DNA from: Shewanella livingstonensis
Lineage (GTDB): Bacteria; Pseudomonadota; Gammaproteobacteria; Enterobacterales; Shewanellaceae
DNA: 64,000 nucleotides
Direction of reading: 5' to 3'
Assembly (NCBI RefSeq): GCF_003855395.1
Contig: NZ_CP034015.1
Span: forward strand, 4,474,001-4,538,000
Shown here piece after piece: positions 36,834 through 46,283 of the stretch. Made by a program: the position numbers and the translations under genes. Under the pieces are notes generated by a model. It was not told the origin of the DNA, did no database searches, and worked only from the letters and a program-made list of their open reading frames with translations. Numbering within the stretch: the stretch's first letter is position 1; every line of letters begins with the position of its first letter.

Positions 36834-36910
36834 CCGTCATTCCGGCAATGCTTTTAAGCCGGAGTCCAGATCTACGCCGTCATCCTCGAGTGCTTTTATC
36901 GGGGATCCAG
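36834..36910. repeat. Two REP-like units
   Basis: Two related units in tandem (36834-36869 and 36877-36910), each of form GCCGTCAT...GCTTTTA...GG..TCCAG, each able to fold. The inverse form occurs at 39749-39787 and a degraded one near 46334-46354. These are dispersed extragenic palindromes. Confidence 0.7.
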
Positions 36911-37049
36911 GTGTATTTTTTTAATGGCCTGAGACCAAAAAAGTCGTGGCGCTTCGCTTAGTCCAAAAGCTGAAATAGTCACATTTCGTTAGATTGGCTA
37001 ACCATTACATTCACTCACCGACACGCACAAGTACATCCATGTAGCTCAA

Positions 37050-37069: not shown

Positions 37070-37303
37070 ACGGTCGTCTCGCAAATAATCATGATTCAGC
37101 TTTTCGGCATTATCTTAATCTGCAGAAATTAAAAACTCAGTCAAAAACTAACAATGGGTGGCATGGTAAATTTCAAATAATTAGCAAATGAGCTAAGGGA
37201 ACTTGCTGACTACAGAAAAGTTGCCAGATAACCATCACATCAAACAGCGCGTTTTCTCGAGCTATTATTTACTAATAAAGAGTCACTCTAGGTGTTCAGG
37301 CTT

Positions 37304-37356
37304 GTTCAACACTAGGGATAAGGACACTTCTTCGCGCGGCCTATCCTTAGTTAGGC
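37304..37356 (-). repeat. attC-like site 1 (end of the HEPN-like cassette)
   Basis: On the minus strand the site begins with core GCCTAAC (RYYYAAC) and ends with GTTGAAC (GTTRRRY), 53 bases in all. Inside, CTAAGGATAGG and CCTTATCCCTAG are complementary with small bulges, as in short integron attC sites. The stop codon of the HEPN-like gene lies within the first core. Confidence 0.8.
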
Positions 37357-37923
37357 GCACTCGGCACCCTCGACTTCAAATAACTTAAACAAAGGTTCTA
37401 TTACATCTAAGATATGGAATCCGTATATTAATACAGCAGGAATCGAGTTGTCGAATACAAACGATGATTTGTTGTCACTCGGAACAGGGTATTTGGGTAA
37501 CCATTTTATTGCATCGGTTAAATGACGCAAAACCATTTTTAATGCTTTAATATCTGTTTCATATTGATGTAAACCAAGTTCAAATATCCCAGCTTCTTCA
37601 GCTAACTCAAGCAAGTTATGAGTTAACTTTTTCTTTTTTCCAATTCCTTTTAAACGCGCTTTATCACCCTTCACCTCGACGATAACATTCTCTGGCGCAT
37701 TCTTAATAATTAAAGCTTTTAACCCATTTTCAATACCAATGCCATAGTGGTAATGAGCATTTATCAAAAGATCTGAACTCATTTTTGTATCATTTAATAC
37801 ATCGGCGTCCATAATCGAATGTAGTATTTTATCAGCTACTTTTTTCTGCACCATTGCATAGTTGAACCAATAAACAGGATTTTTAGCTTTTTCTAAATAT
37901 TCCTCGATTTCCATTCTAAGCAC
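37351..37923 (-). CDS. HEPN-like uncharacterised protein on a gene cassette
   Basis: A 190-residue, mostly helical protein. HYHYGIGIENGLKALI near residue 55 is the type of helix found in HEPN and AbiV-like proteins, and KKKKLTHNLLELAEEAG fits a following helix. The RX4-6H nuclease motif of HEPN toxins is not visible. The start is a GTG at 37923 or the ATG at 37914. The gene fills a cassette: the preceding core is GTTAGGC and the following core is GCCTAAC, its complement, with the TAA inside. Function is unknown; a defence or toxin-antitoxin role is only a guess from the family. Confidence 0.6.
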   Translation of the reverse strand: MLRMEIEEYLEKAKNPVYWFNYAMVQKKVADKILHSIMDADVLNDTKMSSDLLINAHYHYGIGIENGLKALIIKNAPENVIVEVKGDKARLKGIGKKKKLTHNLLELAEEAGIFELGLHQYETDIKALKMVLRHLTDAIKWLPKYPVPSDNKSSFVFDNSIPAVLIYGFHILDVIEPLFKLFEVEGAECA

Positions 37924-37953
37924 CCATTCTAAAATTGATCATTATGCAAGAGC

Positions 37954-38025
37954 GCCTAACGCTTTGCTCACCGGAAAATTAGGAGCGAAGCGAGTAATTT
38001 ATCCGAGTGCTGCAACTTGTTATAT
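37954..38025 (-). repeat. attC-like site 2 (end of the DUF3800 cassette)
   Basis: Minus strand: core ATATAAC, arm AAGTTGCAGCACTCGGA, central stem AAATTA...TAATTT enclosing CTCGCTTCGCTC, arm TCCGGTGAGCAAAGC, and core GTTAGGC; 72 bases. The arms pair with a few unpaired bases on one side, the hallmark of attC folding. Confidence 0.85.
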
Positions 38026-39150
38026 GCATGTTTGATTGTGCATGAAGTAATTGTTTCTAAGATATTCATCTTCACTGACGCAATGAAAGAAAAATCCACG
38101 ACTTACCGCATCAGACTTATCAATTAAATTTTCTATCAGCTTTAGGTTAACCAATTGCCTTTGGTTTAAACTACTTTTTATAGCCTTTATCTGATCATTA
38201 CTCGTATCCGACAGAAAAATAGAATACTTTGCAAATAATCCAGCCATGACATCTGATAACTGGACTTCTAAAACCTCTTCGGATTTCACAAAAGAGTAGT
38301 TGTTGATAATTCTTCCTTGGTCAACGAGATCATATTCATTGAAAATAACTTCAATCTCTTTTTCTTCATCAAAAACATGCTTGGAGTTTTTGAATAGACA
38401 TGTATTTCTTAAGTAATAAATAAAAAAGTCTGAAATTAAAATATGATCTTTTTCATTCATTACAAAGAATAGCTCGGTTGAATCTTCAGCCGACTCCATG
38501 AATTTAGTTAAAAGGTATCGCCTGTCTTCACTTAAAGCTTTAGAGTTACGTTTAACAAAACCAACTAAAAAACCTGAAAATTCCTTAACTTTATCGCTTT
38601 TTATGTTTGGGTATTCAAATTCTCTAAGCTTTTCTAAAAATAGTGCTTCATTATTTACTATCACCTTGTATAAATCACTTTTGATCGACATATGAGATTG
38701 TATAAAAAACTGTCGCTCTACAACGTTGAGGTTTTCTATTATTGAATCTACGATATCAACAATTGACCAGTACAAAACATTTAAACTGAAATAATGTATG
38801 TAAAAATCGTTATCTAGAATCCATTTTAAGAGAATATTAAGTTTTTCGGATGTTAGAATTCTATCAAATGAGCCTTTACCAATGTGCTTGAGCTTTATTT
38901 CCTTTGCTGATTTTTGTAAGCAAAGGCTTTTCTTTAACGAATCAAAGTCTGCACTATGGTATTCACCTTTGTGAACAATTCCAGCTAATACAAAATTACA
39001 CGCCTTTTCAACATTCAGTCCTTTAGATGTTAAATGCAGCTTTCTAATATTATTAGATTCATCATAATAAAAGGTGAACTTATCATCGACACACTCTAGC
39101 TTCTCATACTCAATGGAAGTTCTTCTCATTTCATTTACGTCAAGCTGCAT
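38020..39150 (-). CDS. DUF3800 domain protein on a gene cassette
   Basis: A 376-residue protein with FTFYYDESNN near residue 28, the DES motif that starts the RNase H-like DUF3800 fold, and VQLSDVMAGLFAKY near residue 300, which resembles the conserved QxADxxAG motif of that family. DUF3800 proteins are common on mobile elements and of unknown or defence-linked function. The cassette begins with GTTATAT on the minus strand at 39174-39180 and ends with ATATAAC, its complement; the stop codon is inside the end core. AT-rich codon use differs from neighbours such as the radical SAM gene. Confidence 0.75.
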   Translation of the reverse strand: MQLDVNEMRRTSIEYEKLECVDDKFTFYYDESNNIRKLHLTSKGLNVEKACNFVLAGIVHKGEYHSADFDSLKKSLCLQKSAKEIKLKHIGKGSFDRILTSEKLNILLKWILDNDFYIHYFSLNVLYWSIVDIVDSIIENLNVVERQFFIQSHMSIKSDLYKVIVNNEALFLEKLREFEYPNIKSDKVKEFSGFLVGFVKRNSKALSEDRRYLLTKFMESAEDSTELFFVMNEKDHILISDFFIYYLRNTCLFKNSKHVFDEEKEIEVIFNEYDLVDQGRIINNYSFVKSEEVLEVQLSDVMAGLFAKYSIFLSDTSNDQIKAIKSSLNQRQLVNLKLIENLIDKSDAVSRGFFFHCVSEDEYLRNNYFMHNQTCI

Positions 39151-39173
39151 GAATTCCCCAGCGTTAATTATGC

Positions 39174-39278
39174 ATATAACGGCTTATTAAAAAGCCAAAT
39201 AAATTTAAAGTCGGCAGTTTAAGTTATTGATTAATATCATCCTACATTTAGTATCTTATTGATGTAAAGCCGTTTTAT
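39174..39278 (-). repeat. attC-like site 3, longer VCR-like type
   Basis: Minus strand: from near ATAAAAC through GGCTTTACATC... to AAGCC and core GTTATAT. The outer arms both contain AACGGCTT when read inward. The 50-base middle part matches 46208-46258 almost base for base (TATTGATTAATATCATCCTA shared). The gene of the cassette that this site would close is not evident. Confidence 0.6.
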
Positions 39279-39536
39279 TTAACTCCACTAACAAATAGAA
39301 GCGAGCTTGCGCGTTAAAAGTGAACTCAATATTAGAAAAAAATAAAAACACATCAATTTCAATGTGTTGCAAAATTATCGATTTATTATTCGTACTACTT
39401 TAGTTTACTTATTAGCCGATTTAACTTAAAAAGACGCCAGTAACCATTACGACTGTTTTTATACCAGTACACACTACATAAAGGTTGGAGAAATTGTTGA
39501 CACTGGATATTTATCCGACATTTGTAAGCCGGTTAC

Positions 39537-39731
39537 AAACGAGGTTCAAAGCTGGATCGAACCAAATGGTGACCTTTTCGCAGCTGTTGTTTTGTAAATA
39601 GCGAAAATGTTGCGGGGCGGCTGGGCCAATTCTTTTATAACGAGTAAAGAGGGAACAGCCGTTGGTTTCCTCTTTACTCTGGTGTGGGTGAAGCGCCACG
39701 ACGTTAGTGGCCGCAGGCCATAAGTACAAAA
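39537..39731. repeat. Interspersed repeat, copy 2
   Basis: Full-length partner of 13440-13639. A REP-like unit follows at 39749. No credible gene is contained, although both copies can be read as short, unrelated open frames. Confidence 0.7.
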
Positions 39732-39748
39732 CTACAAGAAACTAACAC

Positions 39749-39787
39749 CTGGATCCCGGCTCATAAGCATTGCCGGGAAGACGATGG
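39749..39787. repeat. REP-like unit, inverse orientation
   Basis: CTGGATCCCGGCT...AGCATTGCCGGGA...GACGATGGC, the reverse of the unit at 36834. The gap 39.28-39.94 kb otherwise holds only repeat copy 2. Confidence 0.65.
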
Positions 39788-39941
39788 CACGAACCTGAGT
39801 AAGTTGATAACTTACTGCCTTTGCTCTTGTATGAGAATAAAACTAAGCCATCCATTTTAGTGATGAATTTAACATCACTATTCTTCAGTTTGATTACGAT
39901 TGCGTTAACCACAATTCAAATCTATTAATTGACCTTAATTA

Positions 39942-42466: not shown

Positions 42467-42526
42467 AGGTTAATCATTAAAGAAAAATAGATTATCACTT
42501 ATTGTGCTTCAGAGAGGGTCTTTTAA

Positions 42527-42980
42527 GTGGTATTACGTAATGGTAAAGGCGAAAAAGACCGTTTGTTACTTTTCCTCAGACCCTGTATCAGATTGTGTGT
42601 TGATCGCATTACGGCAGATGCGGAAAACACACCATCACCCAATCTTGCTTTTTCCAAGCATTCATCATGACAAACAAGGGCCAATGAATAAAGGCCGTAT
42701 TCATAAACGTATCTGCTCGCACTCATTACGCCATTGTTTTGTCTCTCACCTTTTAGATCAAGGCATGGATATATGCTCTCTGCAAATACGACTCTGTCAC
42801 AATGGCCTCAATACGACGGCTGAATACACACAACGTGAGCAGCGTTATGGACGATTATTAAACCAAGATATTCGCCGTTCGATAGCTGACATGATCCAGT
42901 ATAAAATAGCAGGTAACCGCTCAATCCATTGGCAGAGTGGTCATTGCCAGAGTGGTCACTGTCAGCATCAGGAAAAATGA
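42527..42980 (+). pseudogene. Frameshifted tyrosine recombinase/integrase remnant
   Basis: The C-terminal catalytic part only. From 42527 one frame reads VVLRNGKGEKDRLLL, the lysine beta-hairpin of tyrosine recombinases; near 42570 the homologous reading moves to another frame and continues to HSLRHCFVSHLLDQG (RHxxRH-type motif HSLRH), ICSLQIRLCHNGLNTTAEYT (degenerate LGH, and the catalytic Tyr). The N-terminal half is missing, and sequence between the hairpin and the HxLRH box is short. It could derive from an integron integrase or an IS91-linked recombinase; the I2 helix insert that marks IntI is not visible. Confidence 0.75.
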
Positions 42981-43256: not shown

Positions 43257-44264
43257 CTAAATTGAATAAGACTTTCCAAAAGTAGGAATAATGACTTTTA
43301 GAGGATCCATGTTTGATTTCTTAATTTCTTCTTGAAGGGTCTCAATGGGATCATTATATCCCTCATCAGTTAACTTAAAAGTCCCAAAGTGAATTCCAAT
43401 CATCTTTTTACTCTCTAGGTCTTTAAATGCTTGTAGAGAATCCTTTGGATTAAGATGGGCATCTTTCATGAACCACCTAGGCTCATAAGCACCAATTGGA
43501 ATCAAAGAAAGATCCGGTGCACCGAGCTTCTCTTTAATACTTTTAAAGAACTTCCCGTATCCGGTATCTCCAGCAAAGTAGATCTTATAAGCATTTTCAA
43601 TATAGAATCCGCCCCAAAGCATTTCTCTTTTATCGAATATGCCTCTAGCCGACCAGTGCTGTGCGGGAACAAAAGTGATTTTAGTTTTATTCGTTGTTAT
43701 ACTTTGCCACCAATCCAGATCGACAGCCGAATTAATTCCGTTATCCTCTAAAAATGACTTTGTTTTCAACCCTGCAACGAATTTAGGAGCATCTCTGTCG
43801 TTTAAGCGCTTGAGCGTATCAAGATCTAGGTGGTCATAATGATTATGAGATATAAGAACGATATCAATTGAAGGCAGATCATCAAAGGCAATACCAGGTT
43901 TAACCGCTCTCTTGGGTCCAGCAAATTGAACAGGTGAAGCTCTGAGTGAATATTGAGGATCTGTTAATATGTTTAAATTATCAACCTGAATAAGAACTGA
44001 TGCATGGTTGATTACAGTAATAATCGGCTTTACTGATCTTTGGCTAGCAGGTTTAAACTGCTTGGAATCAATTTCATCTGGCCAAGGAGTAGATTCACTC
44101 ATACTGTCCATTTGCCACTTGAGCAGATCAAATATACTTTTATCTTCAAAGGGCTCGATGTTATCAAATTTAACACCATCAAAAGGGGCATTAGTCTTTG
44201 CATGAGGTTGATATGTGCAGGAGGAAAGTAAAACGGTAAATATTAACACTGATAATTTTTTCAT
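43257..44264 (-). CDS. MBL-fold metallo-hydrolase, lipoprotein
   Basis: A 335-residue protein with signal peptide and lipobox LLSSC. ISHNHYDHLDLDTL near residue 135 is the HxHxDH zinc motif; FAGDTGYGKFF near residue 230 and IGIHFGTFKL near residue 295 supply further ligands. The overall pattern matches UlaG/NAPE-PLD-like hydrolases. Substrate is unknown, possibly a phospholipid. It lies within the accessory region but no attC-like site was found at its ends. The 42.98-43.26 kb gap shows nothing. Confidence 0.85.
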   Translation of the reverse strand: MKKLSVLIFTVLLSSCTYQPHAKTNAPFDGVKFDNIEPFEDKSIFDLLKWQMDSMSESTPWPDEIDSKQFKPASQRSVKPIITVINHASVLIQVDNLNILTDPQYSLRASPVQFAGPKRAVKPGIAFDDLPSIDIVLISHNHYDHLDLDTLKRLNDRDAPKFVAGLKTKSFLEDNGINSAVDLDWWQSITTNKTKITFVPAQHWSARGIFDKREMLWGGFYIENAYKIYFAGDTGYGKFFKSIKEKLGAPDLSLIPIGAYEPRWFMKDAHLNPKDSLQAFKDLESKKMIGIHFGTFKLTDEGYNDPIETLQEEIKKSNMDPLKVIIPTFGKSYSI

Positions 44265-44689: not shown

Positions 44690-45151
44690 TTATATTTTTT
44701 TAAGGGAATCATTAATATCGTCAGTGCCCTTAATTGAGCCGCTACATACATCTCCTTCTTTTACACCTGCAAGCCATTTTTTAAGATATTCGACTCTTTG
44801 TAATGTCTGTTTTGTTTCTATGCCCATTGCACACATGCGATATATGCTGCCATATTGTAATTGTTTGTCTGCTAGAGGAAAGCTCATTTCTAAGTCGGCA
44901 TCACGTAATTTAATCCATGCGAGTTGTGAAGCTTTAAGTTTAGATAAGAATTCTTTGTCGTCAGCATAAACTTTCCGAATCAGATTATATACTCTGTTAA
45001 GTTCAGCATCTGCCTTTGTTAAATTAACTCCCTGGCAGAGAGTCATTTCACGTTGTGTTTGTGCCTTTTCTAAACAAATATCAACTTCTGAACTACAAGC
45101 AGAAGATGAAAGAAAAATACTTAATATTATTAGTGAGCTTAATTTTTTCAT
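44690..45151 (-). CDS. LprI/DUF1311-family lysozyme-inhibitor-like lipoprotein
   Basis: A 153-residue lipoprotein with lipobox SSSAC. The pattern CLEKAQTQREMTLC near residue 26, ADAELNRVYNLI and LKASQLAWIKLRDADLEM are the DUF1311/LprI hallmarks. Family members such as mycobacterial LprI bind lysozyme. Its 5' end is preceded on the minus strand by GTTATAT, a cassette-type core, so the gene may sit on a gene cassette. Confidence 0.78.
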   Translation of the reverse strand: MKKLSSLIILSIFLSSSACSSEVDICLEKAQTQREMTLCQGVNLTKADAELNRVYNLIRKVYADDKEFLSKLKASQLAWIKLRDADLEMSFPLADKQLQYGSIYRMCAMGIETKQTLQRVEYLKKWLAGVKEGDVCSGSIKGTDDINDSLKKI

Positions 45152-45165
45152 ACATTGCCTTAAAA

Positions 45166-45254
45166 TATAACGTCCTGTTAAGGGACAAAAAATGGTTGGC
45201 TAAAATAAGCGATGAAGGAGCAAATAGCCAATTGTTATTTGACCTTGTTTAACA
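45166..45254 (-). repeat. attC-like site 4, VCR-like
   Basis: Minus strand: GTTAAACAAGGTCAAATAAC ... ATTTTAGCC ... GTCCCTTAACAGGAC and core GTTATAT. It aligns over its length with the site at 45586-45682. Confidence 0.65.
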
Positions 45255-45336
45255 GCTTGATACTTATTAAGTCCTTTCCCTAGCAAGCCGCATCAGCGGT
45301 ATGCTTAAGGTGACTAAACCAATAGAAGAAAGCTCA

Positions 45337-45585: not shown

Positions 45586-45682
45586 CCCTGACGCCCCATT
45601 AAGAGGCTAAAAATAGTGCGCTAAAATGGAGCGAAGCCAACAGCCCACTGTTTTTAGTCCTTGTTTAACTTCTTAGTTAGAG
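45586..45682 (-). repeat. attC-like site 5, VCR-like
   Basis: Minus strand: core near CTCTAAC, arm AACAAGGACTAAAAACAGTG, central GGCTTCGCTCC, arm CACTATTTTTAGCCTCTTAA, then GGGGCG and a degenerate core GTCAGGG. The first core lies at the end of the membrane-protein gene. Confidence 0.7.
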
Positions 45683-46140
45683 CTTACTTGTGAGGCCCTC
45701 TTACGGTGTATTTTTATATATAAGTAGAAAAATATAAACCATGTGATACTAATTATTCCTGGTGTCATGGCTTCGAGGTATGAACCTAAAGCAAGATTAT
45801 ATTCCCCATTTTTTGATAAAAAAACAATCGTAAAATCTCCTGGATAATAATTGGCTGCAAACTTCTTCTTTGAGCTACATATTGCAATATCACCTGGCTT
45901 GGCATTTCTGATAATAACGTTTTCGTTGGTAGATAAAATGTTAAGTTCAACTTCCAAAGAGCAAGCTTCACGACCAAAAAGATCTTCATATCCAAAATAA
46001 GACTCTATCACTTCAGCTTCGACACTTTTAGAATCTGACGTTTGAAAAACTTCATAAACAAGCGCAGGGGTGAAAACAACCACACCAAAAAAACTAAAAA
46101 ATGTCAGGGCAAAAAAACATATACCTTTAATCTTCTCCAT
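45673..46140 (-). CDS. Small membrane protein of unknown function, cassette-borne
   Basis: A 155-residue protein with hydrophobic segments at about 5-28 and 118-143, and an extracytoplasmic domain between them that contains two cysteines (REACSLEVEL and IAICSSKK). The layout recalls DUF3592-type proteins but the match is loose. Start 46140 is chosen because the upstream ORF extension runs through the attC-like core; the cassette 5' core GTTAGGG precedes it by 22 bases, and the 3' core at 45676-45682 nearly complements it. Confidence 0.55.
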   Translation of the reverse strand: MEKIKGICFFALTFFSFFGVVVFTPALVYEVFQTSDSKSVEAEVIESYFGYEDLFGREACSLEVELNILSTNENVIIRNAKPGDIAICSSKKKFAANYYPGDFTIVFLSKNGEYNLALGSYLEAMTPGIISITWFIFFYLYIKIHRKRASQVSSN

Positions 46141-46161: not shown

Positions 46162-46260
46162 CCCTAACGGCTTATTGAAGGACTTGCTCAGTAAAGCCAA
46201 TCCCCTTAACTTATTGATTAATATCATCCTACATTTTCTATCTTATTGTTGCAAAGCGAT
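46162..46260 (-). repeat. attC-like site 6, same family as site 3
   Basis: Minus strand ends AATAAGCC then core GTTAGGG. The body matches site 3; similarity ends exactly at the base before the expected crossover (AAAGC at the distal end in both). Confidence 0.65.
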
Positions 46261-46283
46261 AAAATATTACTCGGCCTCTACAT

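Follow-up and report, generated by a model that had tools for sequence, protein, structure and literature searches.

The integron cassettes of the window, the 64,000-nt stretch of the Shewanella livingstonensis chromosome analysed here, seem to have been captured by a satellite of an integron whose integrase gene lies elsewhere in the genome. In our preferred reading, to which we give a probability of about 0.7, the array would occupy a satellite attI dock of a split integron, filled in trans by a distant integron integrase (IntI). The promoter and attI would have been copied, with intI cut away, to a chromosomal place far from intI, where circular cassettes would recombine through their attC at the G/TT of the dock. 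The dock promoter would then transcribe the captured cassettes, and the single intact IntI, encoded elsewhere in the chromosome, would act in trans. We infer from sequence comparisons the insertion in trans by IntI, the activity of the dock promoter and the SOS control of intI. On a wider scale, we lean slightly towards regarding the integrons of Shewanella as distributed, with dispersed and amplified intI-less docks at orthologous places, one integrase working in trans and many promoted first slots. What is unusual in the window is the dock, not the cassettes, which are of an ordinary kind.

Window cassettes and their dock

The dock of the array (site A, 39175..39285, minus strand) comprises a promoter-like TTTACA..TAGGAT and a putative attI copy, which ends at the G/TT where the first cassette, a DUF3800 gene, starts. 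A stretch of 67 nt (39219-39285) recurs at 46206-46272 with 82% identity, and a chromosome search with it at E≤0.001 gave 12 matches, two of them in the window, one being a 26-nt fragment and one 78% identical. One of these copies sits between the intact IntI and its first cassette, where the attI and the cassette promoter of an integron are expected. This IntI (C1:1089873-1090805) is the sole integrase over the TIGR02249 cut-off (352.8 bits versus 265), and it is encoded 3.4 Mb away from the window array along the contig; on a circular chromosome, the opposite route would measure 1.4 Mb. The alignment of most dock copies extends to ...CCGTTCAATAAGC(C/T)GTT, beyond which they diverge, and some also retain the first intI codons and the intI promoter, with a palindrome that we take to be a LexA-box-like motif. 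At site A, alignment and tblastn revealed such remains of the intI promoter and first intI codons, and no further intI, at 39286..39560 (plus strand), where a palindrome around 39451-39468 is presumably LexA-box-like as well. The dock shows homology to the region next to intI and meets the cassette at G/TT, and we regard it as very probably a copy of the promoter/attI region of the integron.

In the window, a tblastn search with IntI gave just a 49-residue piece at 42684-42830, which scored 45-46 bits against the TIGR02249 cut-off of 265 and looks like another type of tyrosine recombinase. The preliminary description had presented these genes as integrase-less integron cassettes (CALIN). That no integrase adjoins them was borne out, but the array would not be an orphan cluster, since an apparent attI/promoter copy stands at its head and the genome holds an intact IntI of the dock's type. 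Features beside the cassette arrays include a C-terminal tyrosine recombinase remnant only distantly like IntI (42504-42980) and, beside array B and on the same strand, a gene for a hydrolase with a beta-lactamase fold (Lactamase_B_2, 43257-44264).

Two minus-strand genes, each beginning just inside a GTTRRRY core, follow the dock. The first (38020..39150) encodes a DUF3800 protein that matches the PADLOC phage-defence candidate PDC-S51 (E 2.8e-109) and is 83% identical to a protein of Cycloclasticus pugetii. The second (37351..37923) encodes a HEPN-like protein with a Vibrio harveyi protein (59%) among its homologues; a Pfam search gave no match, and the top PDB fold matches of its structure model (pLDDT 90.4) are HEPN proteins, namely 1ufb (probability 0.97), 4nqf and 1wol, every one with an E value of at least 0.19. 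As previously proposed, the cores are self-consistent within each minus-strand unit, GTTATAT (39174-39180) with ATATAAC (38019-38025) for the DUF3800 gene and GTTAGGC (37954-37960) with GCCTAAC (37350-37356) for the HEPN-like gene, and both TAA stops sit within the R'' box of their own unit. The place itself is not one of fixed flanks without cassette gain or loss: a DUF3800 homologue was found in one of the 128 other Shewanella genomes and a HEPN-like homologue likewise in one, whilst between the flanking genes seven named relatives carry other DNA and an eighth just ~231 bp. An Rfam gathering scan and ARAGORN gave nothing in the 64-kb window.

An attC covariance model was trained on 23 sites chosen by eye, only from other Shewanella genomes, in intI-adjacent stretches no longer than 12 kb. 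In nine of its 14 pairs at least one sequence is changed on both sides, and in a control the model gave a match at E≤0.01 in 51 of 60 relatives, one of them with at least 69 matches. A home-made duplex-energy scan for attC had proved too unspecific (117 forward and 92 reverse sites) and was used merely to pick the training sites. Both sites of the window had been described as folding like attC, which held for one of them. The attC of the DUF3800 cassette (37954..38025, minus strand) scored 53.4 bits, second among the 11 own-chromosome matches listed, and its fold z-scores, calculated against shuffles for each of the two strands, were -1.89 and -1.65, whereas the site at 37304-37356 gave no match at E≤5 with filters off and folded no better than shuffles (-0.85 and -0.09). 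With this attC, an R'' identical to its own 5' core (7/7) and an ORF in the same direction, the DUF3800 gene is firmly an integron cassette without adjoining integrase. The HEPN-like gene, whose cores match and whose site is missed by the model, would be a cassette as judged by its cores only. The own-genome matches listed at E≤1 (150 of 908 candidates) lie at the intI locus (four), at site F (four) and at the window, site J and site D (one each), and all 11 fall at places that also bear a dock; a further match of 37.4 bits at site C is outside the 11 listed.

A second promoter/attI copy in the window, the dock of site B (46166..46257, minus strand), is orthologous in three relatives. Directly behind it, and also on the minus strand, is a cassette-like gene of 155 aa (45673..46140). 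Array B further holds, on this strand, a weak attC candidate (45165..45265; 19.7 bits, with just 3/7 agreement between R'' and core), which is followed by an LprI-family gene (44690..45151). Site A therefore counts one strong attC and one site missed by the model, and site B one weak candidate; by default, IntegronFinder 2.0 as described in PMC9024848 calls a CALIN from at least two attC sites.

The site at 37304-37356 (minus strand) looks like an attC-like hybrid between the R'' box of the HEPN-like cassette and one end of an IS91-like element. The remnant of this end, a hairpin and tail at 37175..37354 (minus strand), is recognised by its recurrence: the hairpin plus ~130 nt of tail has eight matches in the genome, one of them of 30 nt, and at three of the eight it runs into an IS91-like element with Y2_Tnp and Zn_Tnp_IS91 domains. 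Among the loci examined, 15 of 16 distinct hairpin contexts continue into GTTGAAC and the common tail, and the YYYAAC-like boxes that precede them vary. At the intI locus, the IS91-like element is found within a unit that starts with GTTGAAC and ends in an attC with the R'' GTTCAAC. We had taken the tail for a fixed 3' end of the integron, an idea discarded because it continues into the IS91-type transposase. The end of the element (L011 12430-14700; window end 37175-37354) bears an attC-like hairpin, and in the contexts seen it always abuts a YYYAAC-like box of a cassette, as if targeting R'' boxes.

Docks across the genus Shewanella

A 96-nt dock consensus matched 33 of 129 Shewanella genomes, our own included (at most seven candidates per genome were scored), and eight complete or nearly complete genomes picked from these 33, in which every candidate was scored, gave 13, 11, 8, 11, 13, 9, 5 and 2 matches, short ones counted. 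An IntI match of any type at E≤1e-60 was obtained in 23 of the 33, one of them below the cut-off; the other ten, among them G089 with its 13 dock matches, gave none at that threshold, so that docks also persist without a detected integrase. The 91 matches in the loci examined correspond to 74 distinct modules, 59 of which lack any similarity to intI in flanks of up to 1.5 kb. Another 11 are linked to intI, which runs off the examined sequence in six cases and is in two pieces in one, and the remaining four (L160, L222, L030 and L211) have intI remnants beside them. Outside the chromosomes, the dock gave one partial match in plasmids (44% of the query, in a plasmid of Shewanella baltica OS117) and no match in phages. 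Tandem docks, each followed by cassettes of its own, occur at the loci L236 (in G089, with no IntI detected) and L039.

Alignment of 65 modules (nine short or partial matches were omitted) revealed a sharp end of the dock. Most columns up to GTTA hold 1-2 bits, the weak ones being chiefly seven at ~16-23 nt before the junction, and the first base past GTTA falls to 0.13 bits, with every later column below 0.5 bits. Moreover, 61 docks had a junction that could be recognised and were followed by 400 nt of sequence; in 51 of them an ORF of 80 aa or longer starts within 150 nt, at a median of 24 nt after GTT. The same test as a control gave 16 of 54 in front of the modules and 10 of 58 on the opposite strand.

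True cassettes were recognised behind many of these docks. In 22 loci (relatives plus our own sites), the attC model gave 22 matches at E≤0.5, of which 21 are in dock loci, all on the cassette strand, and the last in the dockless L037. The R'' was then compared with the 5' core of the same cassette, using 27 of 36 distinct attC matches (nine of 15-22 bits were left out) and first cassettes with an attC at most 1.2 kb from the dock. Among the 13 so defined, 12 of them without intI, the agreement was 7/7 in six, 6/7 in four, 5/7 in one and 3/7 in two, one of these two failing cassettes being that of window site B; four first-position attC matches more than 1.2 kb from their dock (6/7, 4/7, 3/7 and 2/7) fall outside the 13. 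PADLOC families of the first cassettes include GajA, ThsA, PtuA, AriA, PDC-S31 and PDC-S51 (50 distinct ORFs; 25 of 118 families listed), families that overlap in members and come in a list with no baseline, so that no enrichment is claimed.

If the CALINs of this genus are headed by docks, integrons of other types should show their own attI at the heads of their arrays, a prediction that held in part. In G098, copies of the intI-linked attI (76%) occur at three of the four integrase-less attC loci examined (out of 30 attC matches), each one heading the array and ending in ATGTTA. In G057, with 21 attC matches, a copy of the attI beside a broken intI was found at one of two other loci, ending in GCTGTTA. 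Altogether, four of the six integrase-less arrays tested in these genomes are headed by a copy of their own attI, and no such head was found at the L248 and L250 arrays. The attI types of both genomes are unrelated to the window dock.

Alternative histories of the docks

The docks could be decayed integrons, which captured their cassettes with an intI of their own that was later lost in place. Some modules fit this history, such as the four of 74 with intI remnants (L160, L222, L030 and L211) and the broken intI of G093 and G057, and the site B dock of G069, which retains intI fragments, descends from an intI-bearing platform. As a general explanation we nevertheless find it unlikely, on account of site I (own C1:3498300), where an intI-less junction is common to seven genomes with different cassettes. 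These genomes have in common a left flank (80-92%) and a right-hand element, separated from the dock by ~0.5 to 3.9 kb; the element is a weaker anchor than the left flank, since site G carries it too and one relative has several copies. In the alignment, the intI-less junction is the same in all seven and the sequence from GTT onward is unrelated, and tblastn with IntI at site I found none in the seven genomes. Among 18 pairs with at least 400 nt matching upstream, the 1.1 kb that follow the dock gave no match in 15; in the other three they match over 123-268 nt, consistent with the right-hand element. Over 15 pairs from six genomes (G004 was left out for its partial dock), mean identity was 90.6% in the dock, 85.8% and 87.3% in the flank bins and 45.9% in a forced alignment behind the dock; for G066 versus G105 the values were 100%, 97.5% and 94.1%, and 52.5%. 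Sites B (four genomes), X (three), E (two) and Y (two) behave like site I, one site B pair having 140 nt in common behind the dock. These alignments indicate that the cassettes of site I changed after the loss of intI.

The truncation points also speak against decay in place. The same short intI stub and left end are found in 10 of 13 aligned window-type modules, where part of the common left end is a dispersed repeat and the exact truncation point is thus uncertain. Sites I, G and X have another truncation point in common, which a further module of G069 also shows, and three docks of G098 have a third one. With one truncation point at several different places, it was the truncated docks themselves that were copied.

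Homologous recombination between docks, or between right-hand elements, both being repeated, could also exchange cassettes, with no integrase involved. The docks resemble one another over 100-300 bp, and some right-hand elements do recur (the IS91-like tail, and the site I element also at site G), but among the loci compared no cassette was seen at two docks, the cassettes own an attC and matching cores, and the close relatives of the DUF3800 protein in other genera indicate that its cassette came from outside; we consider this route improbable, and marginally more so than decay. Far less credible still is the idea that the repeat is just a dispersed promoter element, taking no part in recombination. 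Ordinary secondary integration sites of cassettes are attG-like, and the cassettes would have entered such sites in the way of other CALINs. Shewanella genomes indeed commonly carry CALINs and single attC sites (PMC9229058), but the repeat shows homology to what separates intI from its first cassette and ends at the crossover base, and G098 and G057 show likewise with other sequences. We also considered a spread of docks by one-ended IS91 transposition; the IS91-like tail is near just five of the 12 own-genome dock copies, the intI-linked one included.

The preferred reading of docks served in trans by IntI has evidence against it as well: the ten of 33 dock genomes without an IntI match at E≤1e-60, the two of 13 first cassettes that fail the core comparison, the two of six arrays without a head, a conceivable exchange of whole arrays by homologous recombination, and a degenerate second dock near site B, with which the same gene is kept in three relatives, S. 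metallivivens, Shewanella sp. KJ10-1 and S. ulleungensis. This degenerate copy (L039 15581-15645, L069 17889-17942 and L042 16767-16823) is accompanied by a small membrane-protein-like gene and appears frozen. Elsewhere, the cassette of G004 at site I (L230 2564-5296) encodes a 910-aa protein with a SIR2-like start that resembles phage-defence proteins. A stretch of site Y common to G089 and G035 was examined as a moved cassette and set aside, the alignment fitting better a common 3' flank.

Relation to known integron arrangements

In the literature searched, most subscription papers lying outside its scope, no description of dispersed attI copies was found. CALINs and SALINs are common in Shewanella, and section 3.4 of PMC9229058 makes no mention of attI at their heads. 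Docked arrays resemble them in having attC-bearing cassettes far from intI, but differ in being headed by what appears to be a copy of the intI-side promoter and attI. With sedentary chromosomal integrons they share the IntI type, attI, promoter, attC and cassettes, whereas here the docks are spread over the chromosome, most of them without intI. In an integron mobilization unit or TIME-COMP, a small dispersed repeat flanks an integron segment in two inverted copies, ends that transpose with a target duplication and a transposase acting in trans. The site A unit is similarly placed between inverted repeats on its right (36835..36956) and left (39684..39788), recognised by repeat matches; in contrast to those systems, neither a transposase nor a target duplication was identified for the unit, and the repeat also bounds dockless stretches.

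We considered the inverted repeat as a transposon end, but it is no proof of mobilisation: the genome has 62 matches to it, and some pairs enclose DNA where no dock or attC was found. This 105-nt repeat (also at L252, L253 and L255-L261) often occurs as outward-facing pairs, 1.5-4.5 kb apart, bounding accessory genes that lie between other genes, and may be a mobile or REP-like family.

If Shewanella integrons are distributed in this way, a large share of orphan CALIN/SALIN arrays would be explained, at least in this genus, and this would hold for three or more unrelated attI types. If many arrays are headed by working docks, an integron would be a set of promoted chromosomal slots fed by one integrase, and how CALINs originate would become directly testable. 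Dock heads would also offer a simple sequence test, which IntegronFinder, as described in PMC9024848, omits outside class 1, the only class in which it searches for attI.

An IS91-like element in the variable region of an integron has a precedent in ISShvi3 (PMC9229058), which ours resembles in having, in the intI-linked array and beside an attC-like site, a Y2 transposase with an IS91-type zinc domain together with a tyrosine recombinase. By contrast, the window keeps just the end of the element. The intI-linked cassette array also carries a reverse transcriptase (L011 15768-17057), with a group II intron maturase domain below the cut-off.
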